A DNA stretch of 64,000 bases from Rugalucina vietnamica (Eukaryota; Mollusca; Bivalvia; Lucinida; Lucinidae): contig OZ024874.1 of the NCBI GenBank assembly GCA_964017185.1, forward strand, positions 54,030,856-54,094,855, given 5' to 3'. This document shows positions 3,836 to 51,004 of this stretch, piece after piece; position 1 is the first letter of the stretch; every line of letters starts with the position of its first letter. The notes beneath the pieces were generated by a model. It saw only the letters and a list, made by a program, of their open reading frames with translations. It was not told the origin of the DNA and made no database searches. A program made the position numbers and the translations under genes.

Positions 3836-4561
3836 GCAATTACAGTCGGCTTAACATGATATTCTTAGATATATCATCGTGTTTCACTCTAAAATTGTCA
3901 AAATTAAACAGATACAAATTTGTGCTTGCATTAAAACAATCGTTATAAAACAGCACAGTGGAACTCTTTAAAAGAGTCTCGGTCATACTGATTTCGAGAG
4001 AAGTACCATGATAGATTCCGTTTGACGAGGTGACGAAGTCTCGTAACCTCTATTTTGCGGTAAAACCAATGAAACCCACACATGAAACTTATGAATCGAG
4101 TTAAGCAGACTCCAGATTTTACTATTCCGCAATATTTTAGCGGATGTCATATTTTCACGGAAATTAAAAAAGAACCATCGGTTATTGTTGTTATTGCGCG
4201 TCTAGCGGCTGCTTATCTAAGTAAATTCTGTAAACAAGTCCCAAACCCTTCTGCTAACGAATGAACCAATAATGTGCTGTATTTCAATAAGCTATAAACG
4301 TAAATTATTACTACATTCAAAAACCATGCTGTGTTTTTTTCGATCCGTAATTCCTTCTACCATATTATCCCTCTTAACATAGGGAAGAAATGCAGTTGTG
4401 ATAGATGCAGTGCGTCTGCACATCCAAAAATGAAATAGAATTTGTGTATCCATTCCATGGGCCTAACAAATTTCCCACCACAAGAGAAACAGAGAAACTT
4501 TTTCATCATCCTCGAAAATAATACGCCGTGATTCAGTATTATGGCAGTGACAATGTTAACA
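3836..4561. other. no gene seen
   Basis: AT-rich sequence with short open frames only; no domain or repeat border recognised. Confidence 0.5.
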
Positions 4562-4945
4562 ATCGAGGTGTGATTTAGCAAACAATTTTGTCTACAGATA
4601 ATTCAGATGGTTATTATATGATAAAGCTATATCATTTTTCACAAGGAGAGGTGTTATGTACCATTGCACAACTCATTCATTCGAGATTTATCGAGGTGTG
4701 ATTTAGCAAACAATTTTGTCTACAGATAATTCAGATGGTTATTATATGATAAAGCTATATCATTTTTCACAAGGAGAGGTGTTATGTCCCATTGCACAAC
4801 TCATTCATTCGAGATTTATCGAGGTGTGATTTAGCAAACAATTTCATCTACATATAATTCAGATGGTTATTATATAATAAAGCTATATCATTTTTCACAA
4901 GGACAGGTGTTATGTCCCATTACACAACTCATTCATTCAAGATTT
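4562..4945 (+). repeat. three tandem ~128-bp repeats
   Basis: Units start ATCGAGGTGTGATTTAGC at 4562, 4690 and 4818, with shared TTCAGATGGTTATTATAT and CACAAGGAGAGGTGTTATG. The last runs into a tRNA-derived SINE-like unit. Confidence 0.9.
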
Positions 4946-5160
4946 ATCTGCCGTGGTTGGAAGGTCGGGTTGGCATATCACATGATGCGTAGCGTCTAAA
5001 AATAGCAAACCTATTCGATACAATGTATCATATAAGTACAATCTCTGACATATATCGTCAGGGAGTGCACTCTTTGGCTCAGTGATTAGAGCATTGGATT
5101 TCTACTCCGGCGTTTGGGGTTCGAATCCCGTAAGGGACCCGGGATTTTTTCAAACTATGC
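4946..5160 (+). mobile_element. tRNA-derived SINE-like unit 1
   Basis: The tRNA-like head at 5061-5140 has a good A box (TGGCTCAGTGATTAGAGC) and perfect B box (GGTTCGAATCC). The anticodon arm could read TCT, but acceptor and T stems pair poorly. It is preceded by TGCCGTGGTTGGAAGGTCGG, shared with unit 2. Confidence 0.75.
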
Positions 5161-5287
5161 ATCATTAATTTTGATAGTTACGAATTTTCATATTCATAAG
5201 ATGGGGGCTCGTCAGGGATGGACCATTTGAGTCATGCAGTCATAAAAATGACATTCTCGTTATCATGATTAGTTTCTCGAAATGGGG

Positions 5288-5530
5288 GGGTGTTATGTCC
5301 CATTGCACCACTCATTCATTCGAGATTTATCTGCCGTGGTTGGAAGGTCGGGTCGGCAGATTATATGATGCGTAGCGTCTATAAATAGCAAAGCGTATCA
5401 TATAAGTACAATCTCTGACATACTACGCCAGGGAGTCGGCTCTTTGGCTCAGTGGTTAGAGCATTGGATTTCTACTCCGGCGTTCGTGGTTCGAAGCCCA
5501 TAAGCGACCTGGGATCTTTTTCAAACTATG
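5288..5530 (+). mobile_element. tRNA-derived SINE-like unit 2
   Basis: It repeats unit 1 about 370 bp downstream: GTGTTATGTCCCATTGCACC, TGCCGTGGTTGGAAGGTCGG, then A box TGGCTCAGTGGTTAGAGC and a slightly changed B box (GGTTCGAAGCC). Confidence 0.75.
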
Positions 5531-5745
5531 AACCATGTCTTATTTACCAATTTTCATATTCGTAAGACAGGTAAATAGCGGCAAATATATGTAATCAGTA
5601 CAGAGGTACTCCAGCATTAGGGATAGCGTTTCTCATTGGAATAAGCAAACTTTGTAAACGTTTGTAGTACTGTAGATATGTTACACCAGTAAACACCAAA
5701 ACGCGGATGAGTCGATTTTATTTGATTCTAAAATATTTCATGATC

Positions 5746-6751: not shown

Positions 6752-7207
6752 TACAGGAAGATTTCAAATTCACGTGTTGTTCGCTGGCTTAAAAATGATA
6801 TAATATTTAATCACATGGGTGTTTTAATGTGTCTTTTATTAAATCGTTATAAGCATTTTTTTTTGTTTTACTGCAAACATACTGCGTGCTAGACTGAGCA
6901 TAGATCAAGTGTGCTAATGCACACAGTTAATTTCAAATAAAAATAAAACTGAGATCCTTTAAGAGCAGTGAGCATATTAATGAGAAAAAAGATGGGCCAT
7001 ACTGCGGTTGCAAGCACCGTTATTGAGATAAACAGATTAGAGAGTATACTGCATAAGCAACGTTCAAACATCTACCGTATATCGAGATACATGTACACAG
7101 ACTCGAGATTTCATTTCATAAACCGGGCAAATCATTACGACAATTTGTCTATGCAATATACAGAGATCTTTACCAGAAGAAAAATGAAAATTCATTCGAA
7201 AAATGTT

Positions 7208-27685: not shown

Positions 27686-28531
27686 ATGACGTATGATTTT
27701 TCTACTCTGTATACAACATTACCACATAATCTAATAAAAGAAATACTTCTGGATTTGATAGAGTGGACCTTCAAAAGGGCATTAAAACTATGGTTCACTT
27801 TATTTGGCATGTAATGACAGAAAGGCTTTTTTCACTTCCTCTGACCAAAGTCGGTATACACTTTGGTCATGTCAGAATGTGTGCGACGCCTTGTCATATC
27901 TCCTTGATAATATTTATATTAGATTTGGGACCAAGTTATACAGACAAATTGTTGGAATTCCGATGGGTACAAATTGCGCACCTCTCGTAGCTGATTTATT
28001 TTTATACTGCTACGAAAGAGATTTCATGGATTCTCTTAACAATGATAATCAAGCTGATGTTATCGAGGCTTTTAATTCCACATCTAGGTACCTCGATGAC
28101 CTTTTGAACATTGACAACCCTTATTTTGAAGGTATGGTCAAACAAATTTATCCACCTGAACTTCAGTTGAACAAAGCGAATATCTCAGATACCGAAGCCC
28201 CCTTTTTAAATCTACATCTTTCTGTTGCAAATGGATTTTTTTCTTCTAAAATTTATGATAAGCGCATGCAGACGCTTTTAAGTGAGGGCCTTTCGGAACC
28301 TGAATTTTATGGTGACTTAGTTTACAAATTTAAGAAACTTATAGGAATTAATGATTTTTCTTTTCAGTTCAGAAAAATCATAACACGTTACAGACGTATA
28401 GGTTATAACTTGAATGTTATGCGACAGTCTACATGCTTAGTTTTTAACCCAATCATGGTTGATAACTATGCTGCCTTCTTTAATTGCACGCCGGTGGGTC
28501 GGGCGTCAGACTTTATGATGGCCCCGACTTA
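27686..28531 (+). pseudogene. PLE-type reverse transcriptase, frame-broken
   Basis: The order is DFSTLYTTLPHNLIKE, a frame break near 27800, WSCQNVCDALSYLLDNIYI, LYRQIVGIPMGTNCAPLVAD, catalytic SRYLDDLLNI, LQLNKANISDTEAPFLNLH, KIYDKR, then directly QTLLSEGLSEPEFYGDLV and a C-terminus TPVGRASDFMMAPT. The YLDD box and GIPMG motif mark an RT active site. About 75 residues between KIYDKR and the C-terminal part, present in the relatives at 10684 and 48200, are deleted. No GIY-YIG endonuclease is visible. Confidence 0.85.
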
Positions 28532-29157
28532 AAGCTATTCATTTTAGTTGGTTGGGGCCGGAGCTTCTTGTCTGTTGCTTGGCCCACCGGGGTCCAACTG
28601 GTGTTTTTTCTTTTGCTCCGGAGTTAGTAGGTTATTCGGCGCCCAGGGATCTCCATCGTCGGGCAGCTTACTCAATCTGTGAGTGCTTGTTTTTGATTCA
28701 TAAGGATGTTTTTCATGATTTATTTGTTTGTTCTTGATGATTCATTGATTAGTTAGAGATTCACCACGAGGACCGAAGAACTTACTAAATGTTATGAACC
28801 ACTGAAGAAGCTGAGGGTGAGGTTAGGATCCTGATAAACCGGTTAAAGCCCGCCAGTAACTTTGTGTTACTGATCGTTCCAAGGCGATACTTCTGTGGTG
28901 GTTCTTTTTGTTTTATGTCTTGGTGTTTAATTTTTTTTTTTGTGCTGTTGGCGCCTTATGTATGTTTTCATATTTTTAATTAAGTTAAGGTAACTGAGTG
29001 GCCACCTATTGGGAAAATAGCTGCCCATTCGGCTTACGATATGTTTCATGGTATAAGTGCCTGATTGTTAGTTTGGTTTTTTCCCACCTCGGTTTTTGGT
29101 GTGGGAATCTCTTTCTGATTGCGCCTTTTCCTGATCTTTGCCTACTTGTACCTTTTT
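28532..29157 (+). repeat. PLE 3' UTR with terminal hairpin
   Basis: This is the reference for the other 3' fragments in the window. Landmarks are GGATCTCCATCG, GATTCACCACGAGGACCG, GCCCGCCAGTAACTTTG, TTGGCGCCTTATGTATG, GTGGCCACCTATTGGG and a terminal stem TTCCCAC / GTGGGAA with loop CTCGGTTTTTG(G), followed by TGATTGCGCCTTTTCCTGA and CCTACTTGTACC. Confidence 0.8.
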
Positions 29158-34555: not shown

Positions 34556-34798
34556 AACGTTTGATCCCATGGAAGCAGTGAAAACGTCTAATGGGCCATA
34601 TTGCGCAAGAACAGCAAACACAGTAAAGATATTGATAAATTAGATTCCTTTCAACACATATGACTTGACTGTTGACTATCTGTCAACACATATGACTTGA
34701 CGGTTGACTATCTGAATGCAAAGAATACGTACAGTTGTTTAAATATGCCATATATCTTCAAATAATATAATACATATGAGCCGCGTCATCTAAATCTA

Positions 34799-34839
34799 TA
34801 GTCACCGAAGAGGCTTAAGTAGCCGAAACGGTATGGCCC
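34799..34839 (+). ncRNA. hammerhead ribozyme motif, damaged core
   Basis: It carries CCGAAGA (core should be CUGANGA), stem II GGCT-TAAGT-AGCC, GAAA, a shortened stem III, then TA and TGGCCC. It parallels the better copy at 43556-43599. The C-for-U change at core position 4 probably abolishes cleavage. Confidence 0.55.
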
Positions 34840-34858
34840 ACCCCCTTTCTCATTAATA

Positions 34859-35363
34859 CAGTGGCGTGCAAATTAATGTCCACAACGTCGCAAACTCCAA
34901 TGACTTCAATGTATTTTTACGTTTGCAAGAAAAACTATTCCGTTGCTCCTAGGCCTGGTCGACATATTTTCATAATTTGGGTGACATTTGAAAGGCGAAT
35001 ACATAAAGCAATAAAAAAGATTTTTCATGAAATTTTCTGACCTTGTATTTTTTCATATACAAAAATTTAAAACTGTAGAAAATTTTGAAAAATTCATTTT
35101 CCTATGGCGTCAATGGTGACGTTGCCCAAAAACTGTAAAATAATCTCACACTTTCTTTAAATAATTGAAGCCGTGAATCGCATGGATAGAATTGAATAGA
35201 AATATCTTGTTTATTGCTTCATTTATTCACCTTTCAAATGACACCAAAATCGGGAAAATCGATTGTCCAGAAGAGGCAGGATATTTTTTTTCTTGTAAAC
35301 GTGAAAATACATTGCAGTCTATGGAGATTCTGACGTTGTGGACATTAATTTGGCACGTGACTG
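34859..35363. mobile_element. TA-flanked foldback element (Tc1/mariner-type MITE)
   Basis: The ends are CAGTGGCGTGCAAATTAATG and the inverted CATTAATTTGGCACGTGACTG (split: CATTAATTTGG, CACGTGACTG), each flanked by TA. Pairing continues inward (ACCTTTCAAATGACACC against GGGTGACATTTGAAAGG), so almost the whole 505 bp folds back. The short open frame inside is not taken as a gene. Confidence 0.85.
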
Positions 35364-35436
35364 TATTTTCACTGCACTAAAAGGATCTGAGTTTTTTTAT
35401 TTATGTATTATTATTATTATTATTATCTTCATTGAA

Positions 35437-40739: not shown

Positions 40740-40757
40740 GAAATTGTACAATATGGC
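40740..40757 (+). ncRNA. 3' half of a hammerhead motif
   Basis: GAAA-TTGTACAA-TA-TGGCCC is present, as at 47430-47449, and is followed by the same TTGAATGCTTTTACTGCTTC flank. The upstream core (CTGATGA) has decayed, so it is not expected to fold. Confidence 0.5.
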
Positions 40758-40807
40758 CCACCTTCTCTCTTTGAATGCTTTTACTGCTTCCAAAGGATCT
40801 AACAATT

Positions 40808-41100
40808 GTATTTTATTTGTTTTTGATGATTCAATGATTAGTTAGAGATTCACCACAAGGAGCGAACAACTAACTAAATGTGGTAAACCACTGCAGAAGA
40901 TGAGGGTGACGATAGGCGCCTGTAAAATCGATTTAAGTCCCCCCCAAGTAATTTATATTACTGACCGTTCCAAGAAGACACTTCTGTTGTGGTTCCATTT
41001 ATGTTTTGGAGTCGTTGAATTTATGCGCTGTATGAACCATGTGTACGTTTTCATATTTCTATTTAAGTTTGGGTAACTGAGTGGCCGCCTATTGGGAAAT
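40808..41100 (+). repeat. PLE 3' UTR fragment, head of a tandem pair
   Basis: It runs from GATGATTCAATGATTAGTTA through GATTCACCACAAGGAGCG to GTGGCCGCCTATTGGGAAAT and TGCTCACTCGGCTAACGA, stopping before the terminal hairpin. RT sequence of the same family follows at once in the same orientation. Confidence 0.75.
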
Positions 41101-41625: not shown

Positions 41626-41828
41626 GTAAGGAATAAAAACAAATATGCATCACGTTGATTATATGGTTCGATAACTTCATTATATGCGCAAACTACATTA
41701 TATGCGCAAACTACATTATATGATGTGACAACTACATTATATGATGTAGACGACTTTGAAGAATTACTTTGACACCGTTTAGAGGGTTATTGTATACATG
41801 CCGGGACTACCGGACATACTGCTGATTA

Positions 41829-41883
<55 letters not shown>

Positions 41884-41965
41884 GATCGTCATGATCATCA
41901 TGATCATGATCGATCATCTTCATCATCATCATTATCGTCATTAAGATCTATCATCATCAATATCG

Positions 41966-42012
<47 letters not shown>

Positions 42013-42701
42013 TATATAATCATCACCATCATCACCATCATCATTATCATCATCATCATCATCATCATGATAGAACATCATTATCATCATCATCATCATG
42101 ATCGAACATCATCATCATCATCATCATCATCATGATCGATGTATTAATTTAAACGGATCATGATCGATCATGATGATGATGATCAATCATCATGATCGAT
42201 TATGATGATGATCGATCATAATGATGATCGATCACGATGATCGATCATGATGATCGATCATGATGATGATGAGGACCGATCATGATGATGATCGATCATA
42301 ATGATCGATCATGTTGATGATGATCGATCATGACGATGGCCGATCATGATGATTGATCCTTCATGATGATGGAAACGATCGTGATGATGATCGATAATGA
42401 TCGATCATTTTGATAATCGATCATGATGATAAAGATCGATTATGAAGATCGATCATGATGATCGATCGTAATGATGATCGATCATGATTATGATGATCGA
42501 TCATGATGATGATGATCGATCATGATGATGATCGACTCTGATGATGATGATCGCTCATCATGGAGATGATCGATGATGCTGATCGATGATGGTCGATGAT
42601 GATGATGATGATGATCGATCATCATCATGATCGACGATGATTTTCGATCATGATGATCGATTATGATGATGCTCGATGATGATGATGATCGATCGTCATG
42701 G

Positions 42702-42750
<49 letters not shown>

Positions 42751-42872
42751 CGATATTGATGATGATGATCGATCATCATGATGATGATGATGATGATGAT
42801 CGATATTGATGATGATAGATCATAATGACAATGATGAAGATGATGGTGATGACCGATCATGATCATGATGAT

Positions 42873-42944
<72 letters not shown>

Positions 42945-42954
42945 TGGATATATG

Positions 42955-43012
<58 letters not shown>

Positions 43013-43240
43013 ATCAGCAGTATGCCGATAGTCCCGGCATGTATACAATACTCTCTAGATGGTGTCAATGTAATTCTCCTTATTGCAAAATCATCCACAT
43101 CATATAATGTAGTTGTCACCTCATATATTGAAGTTTGCGCATATAATGAAGTTTGCGCATATAATAAAGTTATCGAACCATATAATCAACTTGATGCATA
43201 TAAAGACAATAGCCCATAATATAATGAGAAACATACATAA
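41626..43240. mobile_element. inverted-arm element with 1.2-kb microsatellite core
   Basis: The left arm (41640-41825) and right arm (43013-43205) mirror each other: TATGGTTCGATAACTT / AAGTTATCGAACCATA, TATGCGCAAACT / AGTTTGCGCATA, TGTATACATGCCGGGACTA / TAGTCCCGGCATGTATACA. The core is (TATC)n, then ATC, ATG and GATCGATCATGATG mixtures, then (GATA)n. No protein is encoded. Confidence 0.8.
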
Positions 43241-43555
43241 TATAATGAGGTTGTATCAGCATATAATGTAAGTCTACCATAATATAAACATGTTTACTCA
43301 TCATAAAATGTAAATCTACTATAATATAAAGGTGTTTACTTATATTTATATTATATTTTCCTATTGGTCTTTTGAGATCAGCGAGGGTATTCTGAGAGAT
43401 CAGAATTTGTTTTTATTGGTTTAGCTTCCTTTTCTAACCAACGTTTAATATACGTTTTTGGCCCCATTTGGATTATTACAGTCTTTGTATCGACTATCCT
43501 ATTGAAAGGTGCAAAATTACAGTAATTCTCTTGGCTCCATGTTGCCAAATCTATA
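43241..43555. repeat. scattered ATATAATG motifs
   Basis: ATATAATG(A/T) recurs every 20-40 bp here and again at 43670-43750, as in the arms of the neighbouring element. No gene. Confidence 0.5.
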
Positions 43556-43599
43556 GGGTCACTGAAGAGGCTTAAGTAGCCGAAACCGCAGTATGGCCC
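43556..43599 (+). ncRNA. type I hammerhead ribozyme motif
   Basis: The order is GGGTCA (stem I), CTGAAGA (core CUGANGA), GGCT-TAAGT-AGCC (stem II with the conserved G-C closing pair), GAAA, CCGCAG (minimal stem III), TA (cleavage after A), TGGCCC (stem I partner, six pairs including one G-U). Every invariant core position is met. Very short stem III is what is known for hammerheads of Penelope-like elements and retrozymes, which are thought to act best as dimers. Confidence 0.75.
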
Positions 43600-43957
43600 A
43601 TCCCCTTTCTCATCAATACTTTCACTGCTCTTAAAGGATCTCAGTTTTATTTTTATTTACTCATCATATAATGAATATTTTTATAATATAAAGAACCTGG
43701 TCAAACATATAATGAACTTTTCTCAATATATAATGCACACTATACAACATATACTGAGAGGAATTAGAAACTTAAGTCTTGTCTTTGGAAAGTTCCTGCT
43801 TTGAACCAATTCCAAAATTGTGTTTCTTGTTATGAAATGTGCTTACAACAGCATTTCTGTTACAACGTTGGTTTGTCAAAAAAGAATAAAGTTGCTTAGG
43901 GGACTGTATGGGGTCAACGTTTTAATGCAATGGTCAAAATCCAAGTGTTCAAGTAGT

Positions 43958-44106: not shown

Positions 44107-45785
44107 AACTTACCTTATGACACCATTGAGTGACATTGCAGTTTGTAAGACCTACGCAACGATAATGAACACTGGTAATGTGATTTTTCTCGCGGCGTAA
44201 CTATTGACCGAACACTGCACGTGCAAAACGAGGAAGCTTGTCCACTGTACCGCTTTGCTATTGTTTAAAATAGATCATACGGGAGTATTTTCCCTTGTGC
44301 ATATAAAATGATTGAGACATAATTTTTATTGGTACTCTTTAGCATTTTTCTCTCAAAGTTACAATTTACAATAGGCATTATCTTTTATCGAAACAGTTAA
44401 CAGACTGGGTAGTCAATATAAATGATCTCTTTTATATGCAAAAAACATACTACCTCTTCGTAATGATTTTTGGATAGGTATATATATTGTGTGTAAGTTT
44501 ATATTGCAGGTTTGGAATCAAAACCCTCGGACCTAACTTTCCAAAGTCCACATGGTCAGTTAGGGGACCGCAGTACGAAATGCCCAGCTGTATTTAAGGG
44601 ATACAGTTGGTTGTTTCTGATGATCATAATCCCAATGCAAAAATATGTGAAATTGGTTTCTGATTCATTGTTCTTGCACAACAATAACCCACTAACCATA
44701 ATCTGCGAATCTGAAACCAACTTCCATCGAGAGAAGACTCTCAGCTCTACGTAACTGCTCAGTCAAATCAGTGTCCAACACCCACAGTCGACAGCTATTT
44801 ACTTGATAGCTTTAACTTTTGCCTCAGTTCTCAAACAAGAAGTTAAATATATTTATTATAGACCGCTGAAGTAATTTGGGTTTAAATGCAAGTCTTATAG
44901 GGGAAGATGTATTATCGTTTCGTGTGCATTAGTAAATACGGTAAATGTTCACTGATTTTAGCATGAGTATATCGCTTCAAGTCGATGATATAATATCATT
45001 TAAGCTCATGAATTGCGTGAATCTAGAGTGAGTACTGTTCAGTGAGGGTATAAATAATGATTGCATAAGTCTCAAGGTCATTCGAGGCTTGACAGACGAT
45101 ACGGAGCAGTTGAGTTAGGTTTTGTGCGCTTGCCCCCCCCCCCTCCCCACCCATATGTTTGATATAAATGTTTTAGTGCAGAGCTTTTTCGTTTCCGCTG
45201 TACCCATAGCGCATGGTATACCGCAGTGTACAGTAAATCACATACATGTATCAGTCCTGATCAAAACCTGAATGTACCAAATGTGATGGGTCGTGTTGCT
45301 ACAGACCGATGACGCAAGTAGTGATGTAAATTCAGTCTCTCAAACCGTTAATTTGTTATTAGCATGTAGTACAGCTATTTGGAAAATAATGCAAGTGGTC
45401 CGTTTTTTCGTTCATGGAAGATGGTTTAGGAGTAAAATAGTGTGAATATCGAATACATAGACCATATCAGATTATTTTGTTGAAACTTGTCTTTTTGTTT
45501 CAAAGGCACCTGTTCAAATGAGTAATGCTTTTTGAAATGGACATATCATATCTGTTCAACCACATGCACTAGGCTTTATGCAATGCATAAAGTAGGGATC
45601 ACGTAACGTTTGTTTAAACTTATAACACCAACCGGTATTTTTTTGACAAACCGCTTTTCGTCAAATCCAGGACATCTTTCGAAAGCAGCCAGGGCTTCGC
45701 AGTTTATATATACATGAAGTACCTATCAAGTGGTTCTCTAAAAACTTATTTTATCTGCCTGCCTTATCTGCAAGTGCCTGAAAAA
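44107..45785. other. no gene seen
   Basis: AT-rich DNA with short open frames. A C-rich run is at 45136-45152. No recognised feature. Confidence 0.45.
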
Positions 45786-46198
45786 TGGACTTGAAGTTGA
45801 CTTTCCCATGGGAAAATCATGTTTTCCCATGGGAAATGGCCCTTTCCCATGGGAAATCAGGTTGGCCATGGACGAAAAATGGGCCATGGGCAAAACATAT
45901 TGGCCATGGGAAAAAATTAAAAAAATCTTATGGTCAATCAGTTATTAAACACAAAATTATAATCATTGTTGCTTTGGCCATAATGGCCATGTATATATTT
46001 TGCAGTTATAACTATGTGAAAAAAATAACATTTGGGCCATGGCCGACTAAAAATGGCCATGGCCAGATTTGCCCATGGCCGACAAAAAGTGGCCATGGCC
46101 AGTGTGGTTTTGCCCATGGACAATGCAAATGCTCCCATGGCCAAGTATTTATGGCCATGGCCATTTTAATCACACTCAAGTGGGCCATGGCCATTTGA
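45786..46198. repeat. cluster of CCATGG palindromes
   Basis: About 14 CCATGG-centred palindromes (TTTCCCATGGGAAA, GGCCATGGCC and variants) lie in two blocks, 45805-45915 and 46036-46194, around an AT-rich centre. The open frames through it are rich in Met, Gly, Trp and His and are not believed to be genes. Confidence 0.85.
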
Positions 46199-46929
46199 GA
46201 TGGACATTCTACATGTTCTATGCACCATTGAAAAAGAAAAAAGGTTGAAAATTATAGAAAAGGCAGGTTAAAAGCATTCGGTAAGACGTATAGAATATGA
46301 AAGGTTAAAAAATAGTTAAGTAGCTAAAAAATAATTAGGTAGATGCTAAAATCAGCTTTAACAGCTAAATGTATGGTCATGTCAAGGTATTAAAACCTAG
46401 TCAAGTATGTAGATTCTTGCAATTCTGGAACACTGTATGCGAATATTAACATGTGCAGCTGCCGATACTAATCTGCAAAATTGTTTTTGATGTTTTAAAT
46501 TATCATCAAGGTCTCTCTGTGTTTATAGAAATGACTTATCTCTTTTTGTTGTTGTTGTTGCTGACTATTGTTGTTTCTTTTTATTTATTTTTTAACCTTA
46601 TAATATTTTAAAATAACAACAAACAAGGTCAAGACAAGAAAGAAAAGATGTAAAATAATATTTTAGCGTGTTTATTGTCTTTTTAAAACTCGTCAGTCAG
46701 CTTTTGAAAACTTCAAGTTTTTTCAATTTATTGTGACACGAAAATGCAAAAATAATCCGAGCAGTTATTAGTATAACTGCAACTGTATTGCCGGGTGTTA
46801 TAACTGCAACTGTAATGCCGGGTTCTGTGTCATCTCGATCCCGAAACTATCAAAACTCCAAGCGGTTCCACTTCCTGACGTAAGTCCTCTCGAAAAACAA
46901 TATCGGAGAGCAACGGAGTTTTGAAACTG
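46199..46929. other. no gene seen
   Basis: AT-rich. A short direct repeat TATAACTGCAACTGTA(T/A)TGCCGGGT (split: TATAACTGCAACTGTA, TGCCGGGT) occurs twice near 46770-46825. Confidence 0.5.
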
Positions 46930-47134
46930 TTTGGCCCCTTTGGGAATATGAGTCTTTGATTTAGGCTACACAGATGTAAATTCTTGAAACTGCAGCAAAA
47001 ATGTCTGGCTTTCTCTGCCAGTTTTGTAAAGGGTCACTGATGAAGGTTCATTACCCGAAATTCTACAATATGGCCCATCTTCTCGCTTTGAATGTTTTAC
47101 TGCTTCCAAAGGACCTAACAATTATTTTTATTTG
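46930..47134 (+). mobile_element. retrozyme-like unit 1
   Basis: About 205 bp starting TTGGCCCCTTTGGGAATATG, through AGGCTACACAGATG, a hammerhead, and ending CTAACAATTATTTTTATTT. No coding sequence. A second copy in the same orientation lies about 170 bp downstream. Confidence 0.6.
47031..47076 (+). ncRNA. type I hammerhead ribozyme motif
   Basis: GGGTCA, CTGATGA, A-GGT-TCATT-ACC-C, GAAA, TTCTACAA (two-pair stem III, loop CTAC), TA, TGGCCC. Stem I pairs over six positions. The first stem II pair is an A/C mismatch, which may lower activity. It lies in the first of two ~200-bp direct repeats. Confidence 0.68.
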
Positions 47135-47307
47135 CTATTACTGCAGCTGGTATTGTGCCGTGTGGCGGCCCTAAAAAGTCTCCCCGCACATCATCCATAG
47201 TGCAGATTATATTTTTCTTTTGATCCTTTGGGATCAGTGAATATATATTTGGAGTATGTCAAATATATTGTACGTTAAGAATCATCTTCTTAACAGTATT
47301 TTGAATA

Positions 47308-47504
47308 TTTGGCCCCTTTGGGAATATGAGTCTTTGATTTAGGCTACACAGATGTAAATTCTTGAAATTGCAGCAAAATGTCTGGCTTTCTTTCTCAAAT
47401 AAAGGGTCACTGATGAAGGTTCATTACCCGAAATTGTACAATATGGCCCATCTTCTCGCTTTGAATGTTTTACTGCTTCCAAAGGATCTAACAATTATTT
47501 TTAT
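47308..47504 (+). mobile_element. retrozyme-like unit 2
   Basis: A direct repeat of 46930-47134 with few differences, again with a central hammerhead and an AT-rich end. Non-coding direct repeats each with a hammerhead are the known organisation of retrozymes; here the spacer between units is unrelated. Confidence 0.6.
47404..47449 (+). ncRNA. type I hammerhead ribozyme motif
   Basis: Same architecture as 47031-47076, but stem III is the palindrome TTGTACAA, which would pair between two molecules, as expected for a dimer-active hammerhead. It lies in the second ~200-bp direct repeat. Confidence 0.68.
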
Positions 47505-48004
47505 CTGAAACTGTTGGGGAGTTTGGAACCAATCAATAAGAGCGTTTTCGACATGTCATGTTGACCCGAGTAACTTGGGTAGGTCCACATAAGCGCAATC
47601 CAACATTCACTCTTATGGGTGGAATTCTTTATCCTAAAGGTGTCCTAAAACTGTTATATGGCTTAGAAGCACATACACATGTGTTATATGGTTCGATGGC
47701 CTGAATGCTAGGGTATTGTTGTGGTATTGTTGTGATAGCACTTCTCCCCTTATTGGTAATGTTGCTCAGTTCTGACAACAAAACCCGGGCAACTAAAACA
47801 CCTAACAGAATCCACCTGTAACAATAATATTGCGATAATACGGACTACCGAACACTGAATCCCGTGCGCTGCCTCTTTCCTCCCAGTTCTTGACCAGACC
47901 AGACGTCCCTTTGGTGTCTCTGGAGCGTACAACAGCGAGAGCATACAAGAGCATACCGAAACAGGTAAGCTATTTTATAACAGTATTCATTTTAGGCAGT
48001 ATTT
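47505..48004. other. no gene recognised
   Basis: A possible donor CAG|GTAAGC lies at 47965 on the plus strand after a GC-richer stretch, but no coding frame or partner exon was recognised. Confidence 0.4.
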
Positions 48005-48180
48005 CTGAATAATATCATATTTGCCTTTATATCGAGTCGCTTGCTTATGGAAGTGTGCCAGATATTTGGCGACAGGCAAATGTGGTCCCGGTGTTTCAGA
48101 AGTGTGAGAAATATGATGCAGCTGATTATAGAATAGTGTCGTTAACTCGCATCTGTTGCAAAAACTTAGCACATATTCAG
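48005..48180 (+). pseudogene. LINE RT relic (56703 family), first part
   Basis: It reads ESLAYGSVPDIWRQANVVP, then KYDAADYRIVSLTRICCKN, matching the RT fingers of the 56703 copy with several changes. It breaks off at HIQ, where a PLE piece begins, and the match resumes at about 49080. Confidence 0.75.
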
Positions 48181-48189
48181 GGGCAGATA

Positions 48190-48945
48190 CAGGATTGGTT
48201 TCTTCTAAAATTTATGATAAACGCGATGACTTAGATTTTGATATAAAAATTCCGTTTTTGGAGCATGGATGGTGACATTCCTCGCCTTGCTTCTTATTGT
48301 GTATACATTTCGCAGCTTATTGGGTTTGTTAGAGTCTGCAATCATGTTGCGGACTTTAATGCGCGAAATAAATGTTTAACAGACAAACTTCTACAGCAGG
48401 GCTATCGGTATCATAAACTTCGAAAAACATTTTCTAAATTTTATCGCAGACACTAAACTTGATTTCCCAATCTAATGTTGGGCTAAAGACCCTTTTACGC
48501 GAGGGCCTTTCGGAACCAGAATTATGATTCACTGACTAGCTAGAGAGAGTCACCACGAGGACCGAACTACTAACTAAATGTTGAGAACCACTACAGAACC
48601 CTGAAGGTGAGGTGAGGTTAAGGCTCCGTCAAATCGATTTAAGCCCGCCAGTAATTTTATATTACTGATCATTCCAAGGCGGTACTTCTGTGGTGGTTCT
48701 TATTGTTTTATGTTTTGGTTTTTAAATTTTTGTGTTGTTTGCGCCTTATGTATGTGTTCCTATTTTTAGTTAAGTTTTGGTATCTGAGTGGCCACCTATT
48801 GGAAAGTAGCTGCTCATTCGGCTTACGAGGTGTTTTCATGGTATAAGTACCTGATTGTTAATATAGTGTTTTCCCCACCTCGGTTTTTGGAGTGTGAATC
48901 TCTTTCTGATTGCGCCATTTCCTGATCTTTGCCTACTTGTACCTT
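48190..48945 (+). mobile_element. PLE fragment inserted in a LINE relic
   Basis: It contains an RT segment (SSKIYDKRDDLDFDIK, a frame break, MDGDIPRLASYCVYISQLI, LLQQGYRYHKLRKTFSKFY), a jump to EGLSEPEL, then a 3' UTR from TGATTCACTGACTAGCTAGA to the hairpin and CCTACTTGTACCTTTTT. It separates two parts of one LINE relic. Confidence 0.75.
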
Positions 48946-49079
48946 TTTCTGTTTAAATTCGTCTAGAGGCGTTTCTTTTCAACAATTTACCCGATTTTTC
49001 ATAAATTTCTCAATGAAATATTTTCCCAGACAGGTGTTCAAGCGAACCACCCGAACCCCCTCTAAATCCGCCACTGATA

Positions 49080-49300
49080 TTATAGTCAAAGCCCTAAAGC
49101 ATATTATAGTAAGCAATATACATGCGTGTATAAAAGCATCTCATCCTCGAAAACATTCTTTCTGACTGCCAGCATGGTTTTCGGAGCCATGGGTCTTGTG
49201 AGGCCAGCTGGTTCAGATCTTTCATGGCATGGTTACTGAGTAATGTGGATCAAGCTCTAGACCGGGTTGACAGACAATATTTATCAGTGACTTTCCGAAT
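49080..49300 (+). pseudogene. LINE RT relic (56703 family), second part
   Basis: It reads KHIIVSNIHACI, then after a frame change LSDCQHGFRSHGSCEASW and NVDQALDRVDRQY, the sequence that follows KTLEHI in the 56703 copy. Together with 48005-48180 it is one relic split by a PLE fragment; AGCAYATATT-like sequence at both junctions may be a target duplication. Confidence 0.7.
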
Positions 49301-51004
49301 GTGTCATCCATAGTTATATGTGGATCGCTTGTGGAGTGAGATTTCGCGTCTGACGTATGTCGCCTACAAGAAAGTATTCATTATAGCACACCGCTACAGT
49401 ACTGTTGTCCAACATAGTTGCACTGTCGGTGTGGAAAGGTATTACGGGACACCGACGGCAACATTCTGTCTAGTTTCAACTTACTGGGACAGGTAGATGT
49501 ATACTGTTGCCCAATGTACAACGTTGTACTGTATTTCACCGTAGTTATTGCGATGGTTTTATATGATGAGCTGCCCGCAACACTTTCCCATTACATGTAT
49601 TTTCCAGTTGTTCCTCGGTTTGAATTGCATGCTCATGCGTGCTGATAACAATCAACACCACTGGTAATAATTGGTTCCACTGACATGTTGTTCGTGGATA
49701 AGTGATATTATTTCACTTTTGTTACGTATTTCTCTTATAGTATGCTTAAATCGTTCAGCATACAAGGCGTTGTAAAGTCTACCTGAATTATGGACCTGAT
49801 TGAAATTCAAGCTCAATAAAATATTTAACATATTTAACTTTTTTAACCGTAAAAGGACTCATCTGAGCATCCTTATAGGGCTGAGTATTCTTGTCATTTC
49901 TGTGTCAAACTTTTACATTTCATAAGAAAGGGCCCCTGGTCTGTATTAGCTTTATTCCCGGGATAGGGGTACTCCCATACTTTAAAAAGGCAGTAGAGTA
50001 TGTGTCCATGCACTGACCCCCCCCCCCCAACCCCACCCTTTAGCTCTGAAAGCACCTATATACTTTTTCAGTTCGACTCTAAAAGCACACACTCTTTTCT
50101 GTATACACTGGCCTGTTTTACCCAGTTCGATCAGCTCTAAAAGCACAACTTTCACTGAGTATTGTCGCCCAACATGCACAGCTTCAAAACCCTCTGATCC
50201 TACTTACAGATTGGTCCCTACCTATCTCAGAATGGGAGGGGGGGGGGCAGCATCTGATTGAAGAGTACCTAGTCAGGGGTCTTGGCTGGTAATGAGTTCC
50301 AAGCATGTATGATCTTGGAAAAAAGCTGTGCTTGAAGGTTTCCGTGCTTGTGGAATACTGACGCAGCTTCTTTGATAGGTTTGCTCTGAGTGTAAAACAA
50401 TATTCAGCAGGTATATGGTTTTAATTGTCACAAAACTTTACGCTCATTTGACTTGTTTACTTCTTTGGTATGTATTAACCTCCTGTATATAGGAGCACCA
50501 CGTTTTAACTAAAACATGTAAAAGACAAGTTGGCTTCTTTAAAAAGAAACCAATGAAAAGGTCAGCAGCAGTTTGATATAAGAGCTTCCTTTTGCTCCAG
50601 ATTTCAGTGTTGTTGATTCTCTGGTTTGTCATTAATTTCGATTCACATACGTTTCAGTTTCGTATAAATATCGTTTCATGTTATGAACGCTTGACCAGTG
50701 TGTGTATCAGTCACTCAAGGCATTGACTAAAATTTCTGATGTTACAGAATCAAAGCTAATTCTAAAGAGAACACGATTACAATCAAATATGTCGATATGT
50801 CACAGTGTAGAAAACCATTTTGCAGTGCAGTCAATTTGTGACAGAGTTCTGAATTTTGACTTGCAGCCACACTACCGGAGAGAGACACATGGGTCCGATG
50901 TGATGAACTAAGTGTCAGCCATCTAGAGTTCCTATAGTTTATGTACCCCTCATCAGGGTATCTACGATCTTAACTTAGATTCTGTATGTTAACCATTCTC
51001 CCAA
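49301..51004. other. no gene seen
   Basis: Mixed sequence with a C-rich run at 50018-50028 and a G run near 50238. Open frames lack domain signatures. A short inverted repeat precedes the LINE at 51005. Confidence 0.45.

Follow-up and report, generated by a model that had tools for sequence, protein, structure and literature searches.

Non-LTR retrozymes of animals, as described in Mytilus galloprovincialis, carry a type I hammerhead ribozyme (HHR) in small tandem repeats (Cervera & de la Pena 2020, PMC7229834), and efficient self-cleavage is reported there for most invertebrate retrozyme HHRs. The retrozymes of axolotl and newt have a very weak helix III with a palindromic tetraloop, pointing to dimeric action (PMC7229834). 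Penelope-like elements (PLEs) with minimal hammerheads also occur as tandem copies, with the HHR placed upstream of a fixed internal start of reverse transcription (PMC11167929).

The element described here comes from a bivalve, Rugalucina vietnamica, and was found in a stretch of 64,000 nucleotides of contig OZ024874.1, hereafter the window. It resembles the Mytilus retrozymes, the closest published case considered, in unit length (373 bp against 350-390 bp), in the number of motif copies (8,090 against approximately 5,000), in low GC (0.37 here) and in lacking a coding frame of note (PMC7229834). It has the features of animal non-LTR retrozymes: a type I hammerhead with an intact core in each unit, tandem repeats in the range of ~150-450 bp that run from dimers to multimers, and a non-coding sequence of low GC. 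In that class target-site duplications, when present, exceed 4 bp; the one at the window locus is 10 bp, and in most arrays duplications are short or absent. Circular RNA and cleavage were demonstrated in Mytilus, whereas both are predicted for our element; conversely, the fixed 3' end, the arrays made from one template and the head-to-head arrays reported below are not described in the available text on Mytilus (PMC7229834). With the amphibian elements it shares the weak helix III and the palindromic loop, but its host is a bivalve and its palindrome varies by subfamily, with GTAC, GCGC, CGCG and CATG centres. PLEs, which are also present as head-to-head copies in the same genome, encode a GIY-YIG endonuclease and a reverse transcriptase, whereas the longest stop-free stretch in the tandem retrozyme monomer is 69 amino acids and nothing evident is encoded. 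Plant LTR retrozymes are likewise non-autonomous, hammerhead-bearing elements with a circular-RNA route (PMC4918200), but they carry type III hammerheads in LTRs, have a PBS and a PPT, make 4-bp target-site duplications and form circles of 600-800 nt (PMC7229834). Because the open helix of our hammerhead is stem I, it is of type I, and membership in the plant class was rejected. The features of the locus and its relatives in the window are as follows.

46932-47505, plus strand: retrozyme array that measures 574 bp from one target-site duplication to the other and holds ~1.53 units (unit length ~373-377 nt).
47031-47076, plus strand: type I hammerhead 1 (HHR 1), predicted cleavage between 47070 and 47071.
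47404-47449, plus strand: type I hammerhead 2 (HHR 2), palindromic stem III ATTGTACAAT, predicted cleavage between 47443 and 47444.
47071-47443, plus strand: 373-nt monomer expected from double cleavage, a predicted circular RNA, placed by the two cleavage sites.
47135-47298, plus strand: remainder of the tandem unit, as seen in arrays elsewhere in the genome.
47495-47505, plus strand: common 3' end, reading ...AATTATTTTTATTT in most copies; putative start site of reverse transcription.
46922-46931, plus strand: left copy of the 10-bp target-site duplication TGAAACTGTT.
47506-47515, plus strand: right copy of the same duplication.
43350-43661, plus strand: subfamily 2 copy, ~72% identical, 5'-truncated, same 3' end; hammerhead at 43556-43599.
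34792-35404, plus strand: subfamily 2 copy, 5'-truncated, divided by a ~500-bp insert with inverted ends; right end placed by eye.
40740-40819, plus strand: short 5'-truncated subfamily 1 fragment, same 3' end position.
6931-7009, minus strand: short 5'-truncated subfamily 2 fragment, same 3' end position.
45624-50369, plus strand: multi-copy longer segment that holds the array as a passenger, ~95% identical on contig C1; right boundary not reached.

The initial annotation had described a pair of direct repeats of ~200 bp, each with one hammerhead, as a retrozyme-like locus. Both repeats are present (46919-47134 and 47299-47507, 92% identical over 216 nt), and each reads GGGTCA-CTGATGA-stem II (13 nt)-GAAA-stem III-TA-TGGCCC, with the six pairs of stem I that had been claimed, one of them G-U. 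The sequence between them had been called an unrelated spacer. A search of the organism's own genome (1.09 Gb in 47 contigs) with the locus corrected this, as other arrays repeat the whole ~376-nt stretch head-to-tail; the window locus therefore comprises ~1.53 units and the supposed spacer is the rest of the unit. The hammerhead does sit centrally in each repeat, as had been noted, but this is purely an effect of where the array is cut (unit positions 1 and ~204). The suggested contrast with simple tandem retrozymes falls away as well, since the locus is an ordinary short tandem array of a repeat that reaches ~6 units elsewhere in the genome. The palindromic stem III reported for unit 2 is real, but it is the norm of the subfamily rather than a peculiarity of that unit: unit position 134 is G in 144 of 148 aligned copies, and unit 1 of the window carries a rare C. 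In the subfamily 2 copy at 34792-35404 the core CCGAAGA replaces CTGAAGA, so this hammerhead is probably inactive. The insert dividing that copy (at about 34860-35363, with inverted ends GTGGCGTGCAAATTAATGTCCACAACGTC...) resembles a DNA transposon, and a long inverted repeat with a GATA/ATC microsatellite core (41643-43201) lies closely upstream of the other subfamily 2 copy.

To place the locus among its relatives, we worked with a sample of 51 arrays: the window array and 50 others that could be distinguished among the matches listed, drawn from searches in which the best 40 of 3,638 and the best 40 of 3,080 candidates were scored. This sample is biased toward young copies, because its arrays are the closest relatives of the window unit. 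The arrays are 423-2,214 nt long and hold 1.1-5.9 units, and complete units have a modal length of 373 nt (42 of 87). Across the genome, the pattern GGGTCACTGANGANN{8,16}GAAAN{4,12}TATGGCCCA matches exactly at 3,925 forward and 4,165 reverse sites, which fall in several subfamilies; the reversed pattern, used as a control in the same genome, has none in either direction, and the hammerhead pattern itself has no match in IMG/VR and none in GTDB contigs. The C1q domain is also strongly expanded in this genome (516 first-look candidates, at least 150 above the cut-off), an expansion that is a mark of bivalves.

A descriptor of the core and the three stems, composed after the sites had been seen, found sites at 47037, 47410 and 43562 in the window, whereas 300 dinucleotide-preserving shuffles, searched on both strands, gave none. 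The initial annotation had counted the lack of a covariance hit above threshold among its refuting outcomes, and on this point the result was divided. Rfam 15 returned no hammerhead in the window at the gathering score, nor any up to E = 10, whereas a covariance model of 14 motifs from the element's other subfamilies, two of them window sites, recovered HHR 1 and HHR 2 at 54 bits each, with E-values near 7e-12 that are rough owing to a short calibration; the next non-hammerhead match had E = 2. The sites at 43556 (73.6 bits) and 34799 (52.2 bits) scored as sequences that are themselves in the model. The Rfam negative is weak, because in this genome Rfam also misses a putative hammerhead-like motif that belongs to a Penelope-like element, with no match up to E = 1. 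Rfam matches to snoR11, FAS-AS1 and mir-2822 were rejected as chance, their scores being far under the gathering thresholds.

Apart from N7 (121 T, 20 C, 4 A), the positions of the CTGANGA core are conserved in 144 or more of 145 aligned copies. Because the search pattern itself dictated stem I, the covariation count bears on stem II. Among 47 distinct motifs, taken from the matches listed in the first part of contig C1 (3 of 50 were dropped, their block not being 13 nt), 167 of 188 stem II cells are paired, whereas the shuffles average 142 and reach 153 at most. Pair 2 is G-C in 35 motifs, A-U in 10 and G-U in 2; pair 3 is C-G in 28 and G-C in 12, with 7 others, so that both show compensatory changes; the outermost pair is the weakest, paired in 32 of the 47. 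The window subfamily has an A.C mismatch at 10.1/11.1 of this stem. In the 14-row alignment 98.2% of cells are paired and 9 cells carry changes in both partners, compared with a mean of 3.0 in the shuffles. The number of pairs with such a two-sided change, three, lies within the shuffled range, being reached in 140 of 500; the shuffles overstate independence, because the aligned rows stem from a few subfamilies.

Stem III tells a different part of the story. Its block is a perfect palindrome in 29 of the 47 distinct motifs, in four versions (ATTGTACAAT, ATTGCGCAAT, ACCGCGGT and ACCATGGT). The centre of such a palindrome is unpairable inside one small hairpin and pairable between two copies, which points to paired, dimeric hammerheads like those published from amphibians. 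Against this stands the folding energy of the single strand: the hammerhead form reaches approximately -5 kcal/mol, the minimum free energy is -8 to -9, and in an alternative hairpin the core pairs with loop II.

The ends of the arrays follow a clear pattern. In 47 independent arrays, that is, the 51 less four that carry the window's own insertion, the 3' end falls at unit position 201-206 in 39 and at 201-212 in 44, which is 60-71 nt 3' of the predicted cleavage position at 141. The 5' starts, by contrast, fall all along the unit (Rayleigh R of 0.266, against 0.895 for the 3' ends), if not quite evenly (Rayleigh p of approximately 0.036), as 5 of the 47 start at 228-232. Three independent arrays depart from the common end, at unit positions 31, 317 and 343. 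The first of these (L083) is interrupted and a further piece of it ends at 203, so that L064 and L078 remain as exceptions.

The same end recurs in the more distant subfamilies. For subfamily 2, approximately 72% identical to the window unit, 11 matches with identity over 76% were listed besides the query; six of them stop at the same aligned end (query 318-322) with starts from 18 to 250, two others stop at 313 and 345 respectively, and the remaining three are split or internal pieces. Judged by eye, 16 of 20 sampled 3' sides of subfamilies 2-4 become unique sequence near the common end, including both sampled sides of subfamily 4, which have a diverged tail; two others enter the next unit and two are of different arrangement. 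At the loci L112 and L113 the hammerheads resemble those of subfamily 4, and the sequence 3' of them is a different one that includes another ATTGTATAATG-like stretch; this may be a second retrozyme layout. In a separate dispersed family of the window, copies are likewise truncated at the 5' side and share a 3' end, CCTACTTGTACCTTTTT, that lacks poly(A); these ends lie at 29157, 48948, 26885, 19825, 31378, 3823 and, on the minus strand, 9779.

Units within one array are far more alike than units of different arrays. Over 87 complete units, divergence is 1.3% within arrays (53 pairs) and 4.8% between arrays (3,663 pairs), and none of 1,000 label shuffles was as low as the within-array value; in 44 of 54 cases the most similar unit is one of the same array. 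In three arrays (L053, L055 and L075) the units show no difference from one another while sharing 9-11 variants against the column majority. Other arrays are less uniform, with 5.7% divergence within L073 and 4.0% within L039. The array L075 is also notable for its arrangement: an inverted array and a plus array stand head-to-head with their 5' ends 7 nt apart and both 3' ends at unit position 205. Its two complete plus units are identical, and the inverted unit differs by 16 mismatches in 369. The simplest reading is that cDNA synthesis was primed on each of the two target strands, with a different template on each, though L075 may instead represent two separate insertions. It is the one clear head-to-head array among the 51, inverted pieces at L050, L056 and L060 being more diverged or more distant.

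Taken together, these observations suggest that the locus is probably an insertion of a non-autonomous, non-coding, non-LTR animal retrozyme, copied by reverse transcription that begins at one fixed internal point of a small RNA circle and runs round it. Anatomy, covariation, copy number and the tandem arrays found across the genome all favour the retrozyme assignment, with which the initial annotation agrees. Tandem units would be transcribed, and each hammerhead, to judge by its motif, would cut after ...TA to free the 373-nt monomer. Two hammerheads of neighbouring or separate units may act as a pair in doing so, as suggested by the weak fold of the monomer hammerhead and the palindromic stem III. 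The monomer would then be closed into a circle, on which a reverse transcriptase encoded elsewhere in the genome would start cDNA at a fixed site approximately 63 nt 3' of the cut. Synthesis presumably rounds the circle one to several times and halts at varying points. Variable rounds from a fixed start would give arrays of n units plus a fraction, in which the 3' end is constant, the 5' ends vary and the units are nearly identical; such near-identity could also result from local tandem duplication after insertion.

The most serious competitor is SINE- or LINE-like retrotransposition of linear multimers with an RNA 3' end set by the T-run (acting, for instance, as a Pol III terminator), with no circle involved. 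A fixed end just beyond TTTTT and a variable 5' truncation resembling that of LINEs would both suit this route. We nevertheless regard it as unlikely: the commonest array end lies 3-4 nt after the T-run, at ATTT, and a T-run present in every unit should stop multimers from forming. Moreover, arrays copied from a multimeric transcript are expected to retain its unit-to-unit differences, and several arrays have none.

Less probable still is that the repeat is ordinary satellite DNA, expanded, contracted and homogenized by unequal exchange, that carries a hammerhead by chance. The units are indeed tandem, and one insertion shared by several places holds 1.5 units at two of them and ~2.5 at three, so that unit number also changes after insertion. 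A satellite does not, however, explain why dispersed arrays have a constant 3' end and scattered 5' ends, why severely 5'-truncated fragments keep that same 3' end, or why the hammerhead shows covariation. Reverse transcription from the 3' end of a hammerhead-cleaved linear monomer, the expected main RNA, is very improbable, as it predicts ends at unit position 141 and none of the 47 independent arrays ends at 136-146.

The shared insertion just mentioned is that of the window itself. Four other arrays (L039, L040, L041 and L044) have flanks 94-99% identical to those in the window and the same insertion point, and the segment common to the window and contig C1 extends from 45624 to at least 50369. 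The window insertion was thus multiplied afterwards, carried along as a passenger when a larger repeated segment was copied.

With regard to integration, the window insertion has the 10-bp TGAAACTGTT on both sides. Flanks match over at least 6 bp in 12 of 46 arrays, compared with approximately 11.5% of 2,064 mismatched flank pairs, but one of these 12 is an 18-bp match that joins inverted-repeat flanks and two are the same insertion. Best-match lengths are barely above those of mismatched pairs, and duplications are mostly short or absent; occupied and empty sites compared by eye at L048, L061, L077 and L085 indicate gains of roughly 0-7 bp. No clear target motif emerged from 43 of the 51 arrays, the eight omitted being duplicates of the window insertion, nested or odd-ended.

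Other repeats in the window yielded matches to structured RNAs. An Rfam SECIS_1 match of 40 bits (28507-28574) lies inside a repeat family that recurs at 36877-36214, and probably does not mark a selenoprotein gene. Two Rfam tRNA matches (5070-5136 and 5438-5509), for which ARAGORN makes no call, fall in a duplicated stretch (4906-5201 and 5289-5567) and are possibly a tRNA-derived SINE.

The discussion of the Mytilus work leaves the mobilizing enzyme open and names LINEs or Penelope-like elements as candidates (PMC7229834). In this genome GIY-YIG domains are common, with at least 150 of 451 candidate places over the Pfam cut-off, and copies with 964-aa frames stand in tandem with a period of 3,893 nt. 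A hammerhead-like motif lies between the ORFs of one such element. Among the 150 places listed of the 451, neighbours within 6 kb are head-to-head in 21 cases, in tandem in 11 and tail-to-tail in 2, and the retrozyme array L075 is likewise head-to-head. A purified PLE from the anole starts reverse transcription at an internal RNA site downstream of its HHR and extends both DNA strands (PMC11167929); by subtraction of the printed coordinates, the start lies 85-92 nt past the HHR cut (PMC11167929). A PLE with GIY-YIG endonuclease and reverse transcriptase is thus a candidate for the enzyme that mobilizes the retrozyme, an addition to our explanation that we hold tentatively, as somewhat less likely than not.

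Several observations weigh against it. HHR mutations left insertion by the anole enzyme in vitro unchanged (PMC11167929), and LINE-type reverse transcriptases are also present in the genome. The retrozyme has no sequence similarity to the PLE regions compared, and a clear head-to-head arrangement is seen in only 1 of 51 retrozyme arrays. In PLE family A, the one array end that was read is a TA repeat approximately 160 nt past its HHR rather than 63, and family B has no CTGANGA core in 801 nt from each of two copies. With that array end so far past the motif, and with no sequence shared by either PLE family, a Penelope driver is plausible rather than demonstrated.

Candidate partners were rejected in turn. 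For family A, L091 gave only chance-level BLAST matches, and with L092 compared with L091 there is no shared tail; for family B, BLAST of L114 found no shared tail, and L115 is 90% identical to L114. A scan for the CTGANGA core in a region upstream of the third GIY-YIG element considered (L093) found none, and by eye no retrozyme tail is present in the 3' regions of two LINE frames in the window or in the repeat family ending at 29157. An autonomous element with the retrozyme 3' tail was not found in the few candidate regions compared. A second hammerhead-like motif, CCTGCTGAAGAGCTGTAAAGTGAAAGCGCTACAGG, occurs near position 1035 of L092 (C15:424300-425700, minus strand), as an inverted pair beyond the PLE array end at the TA repeat.

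Animal retrozymes with type I hammerheads are already established. What is new is the evidence on how they are copied, namely the fixed 3' end, the scattered 5' starts, the low divergence within arrays and the head-to-head array. No description of a fixed 3' end or of arrays from one template appears in the available text of PMC7229834, in passages of the review PMC7761336 or in retrozyme titles and abstract openings, a survey of largely open-access literature. The genomic ends point to a specific start site of reverse transcription, and the thousands of copies in one genome form a natural record of reverse transcription around circles. It is conceivable, if rather doubtful, that retrozymes are copied by a Penelope-type enzyme that loads ribozyme-made RNA circles, starts at a fixed internal site shortly after the hammerhead, travels round the circle and can use both target strands with two different circles at once, as at L075. 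If so, the tandem and head-to-head copies of Penelope elements and the arrays of retrozymes would be products of one mechanism.
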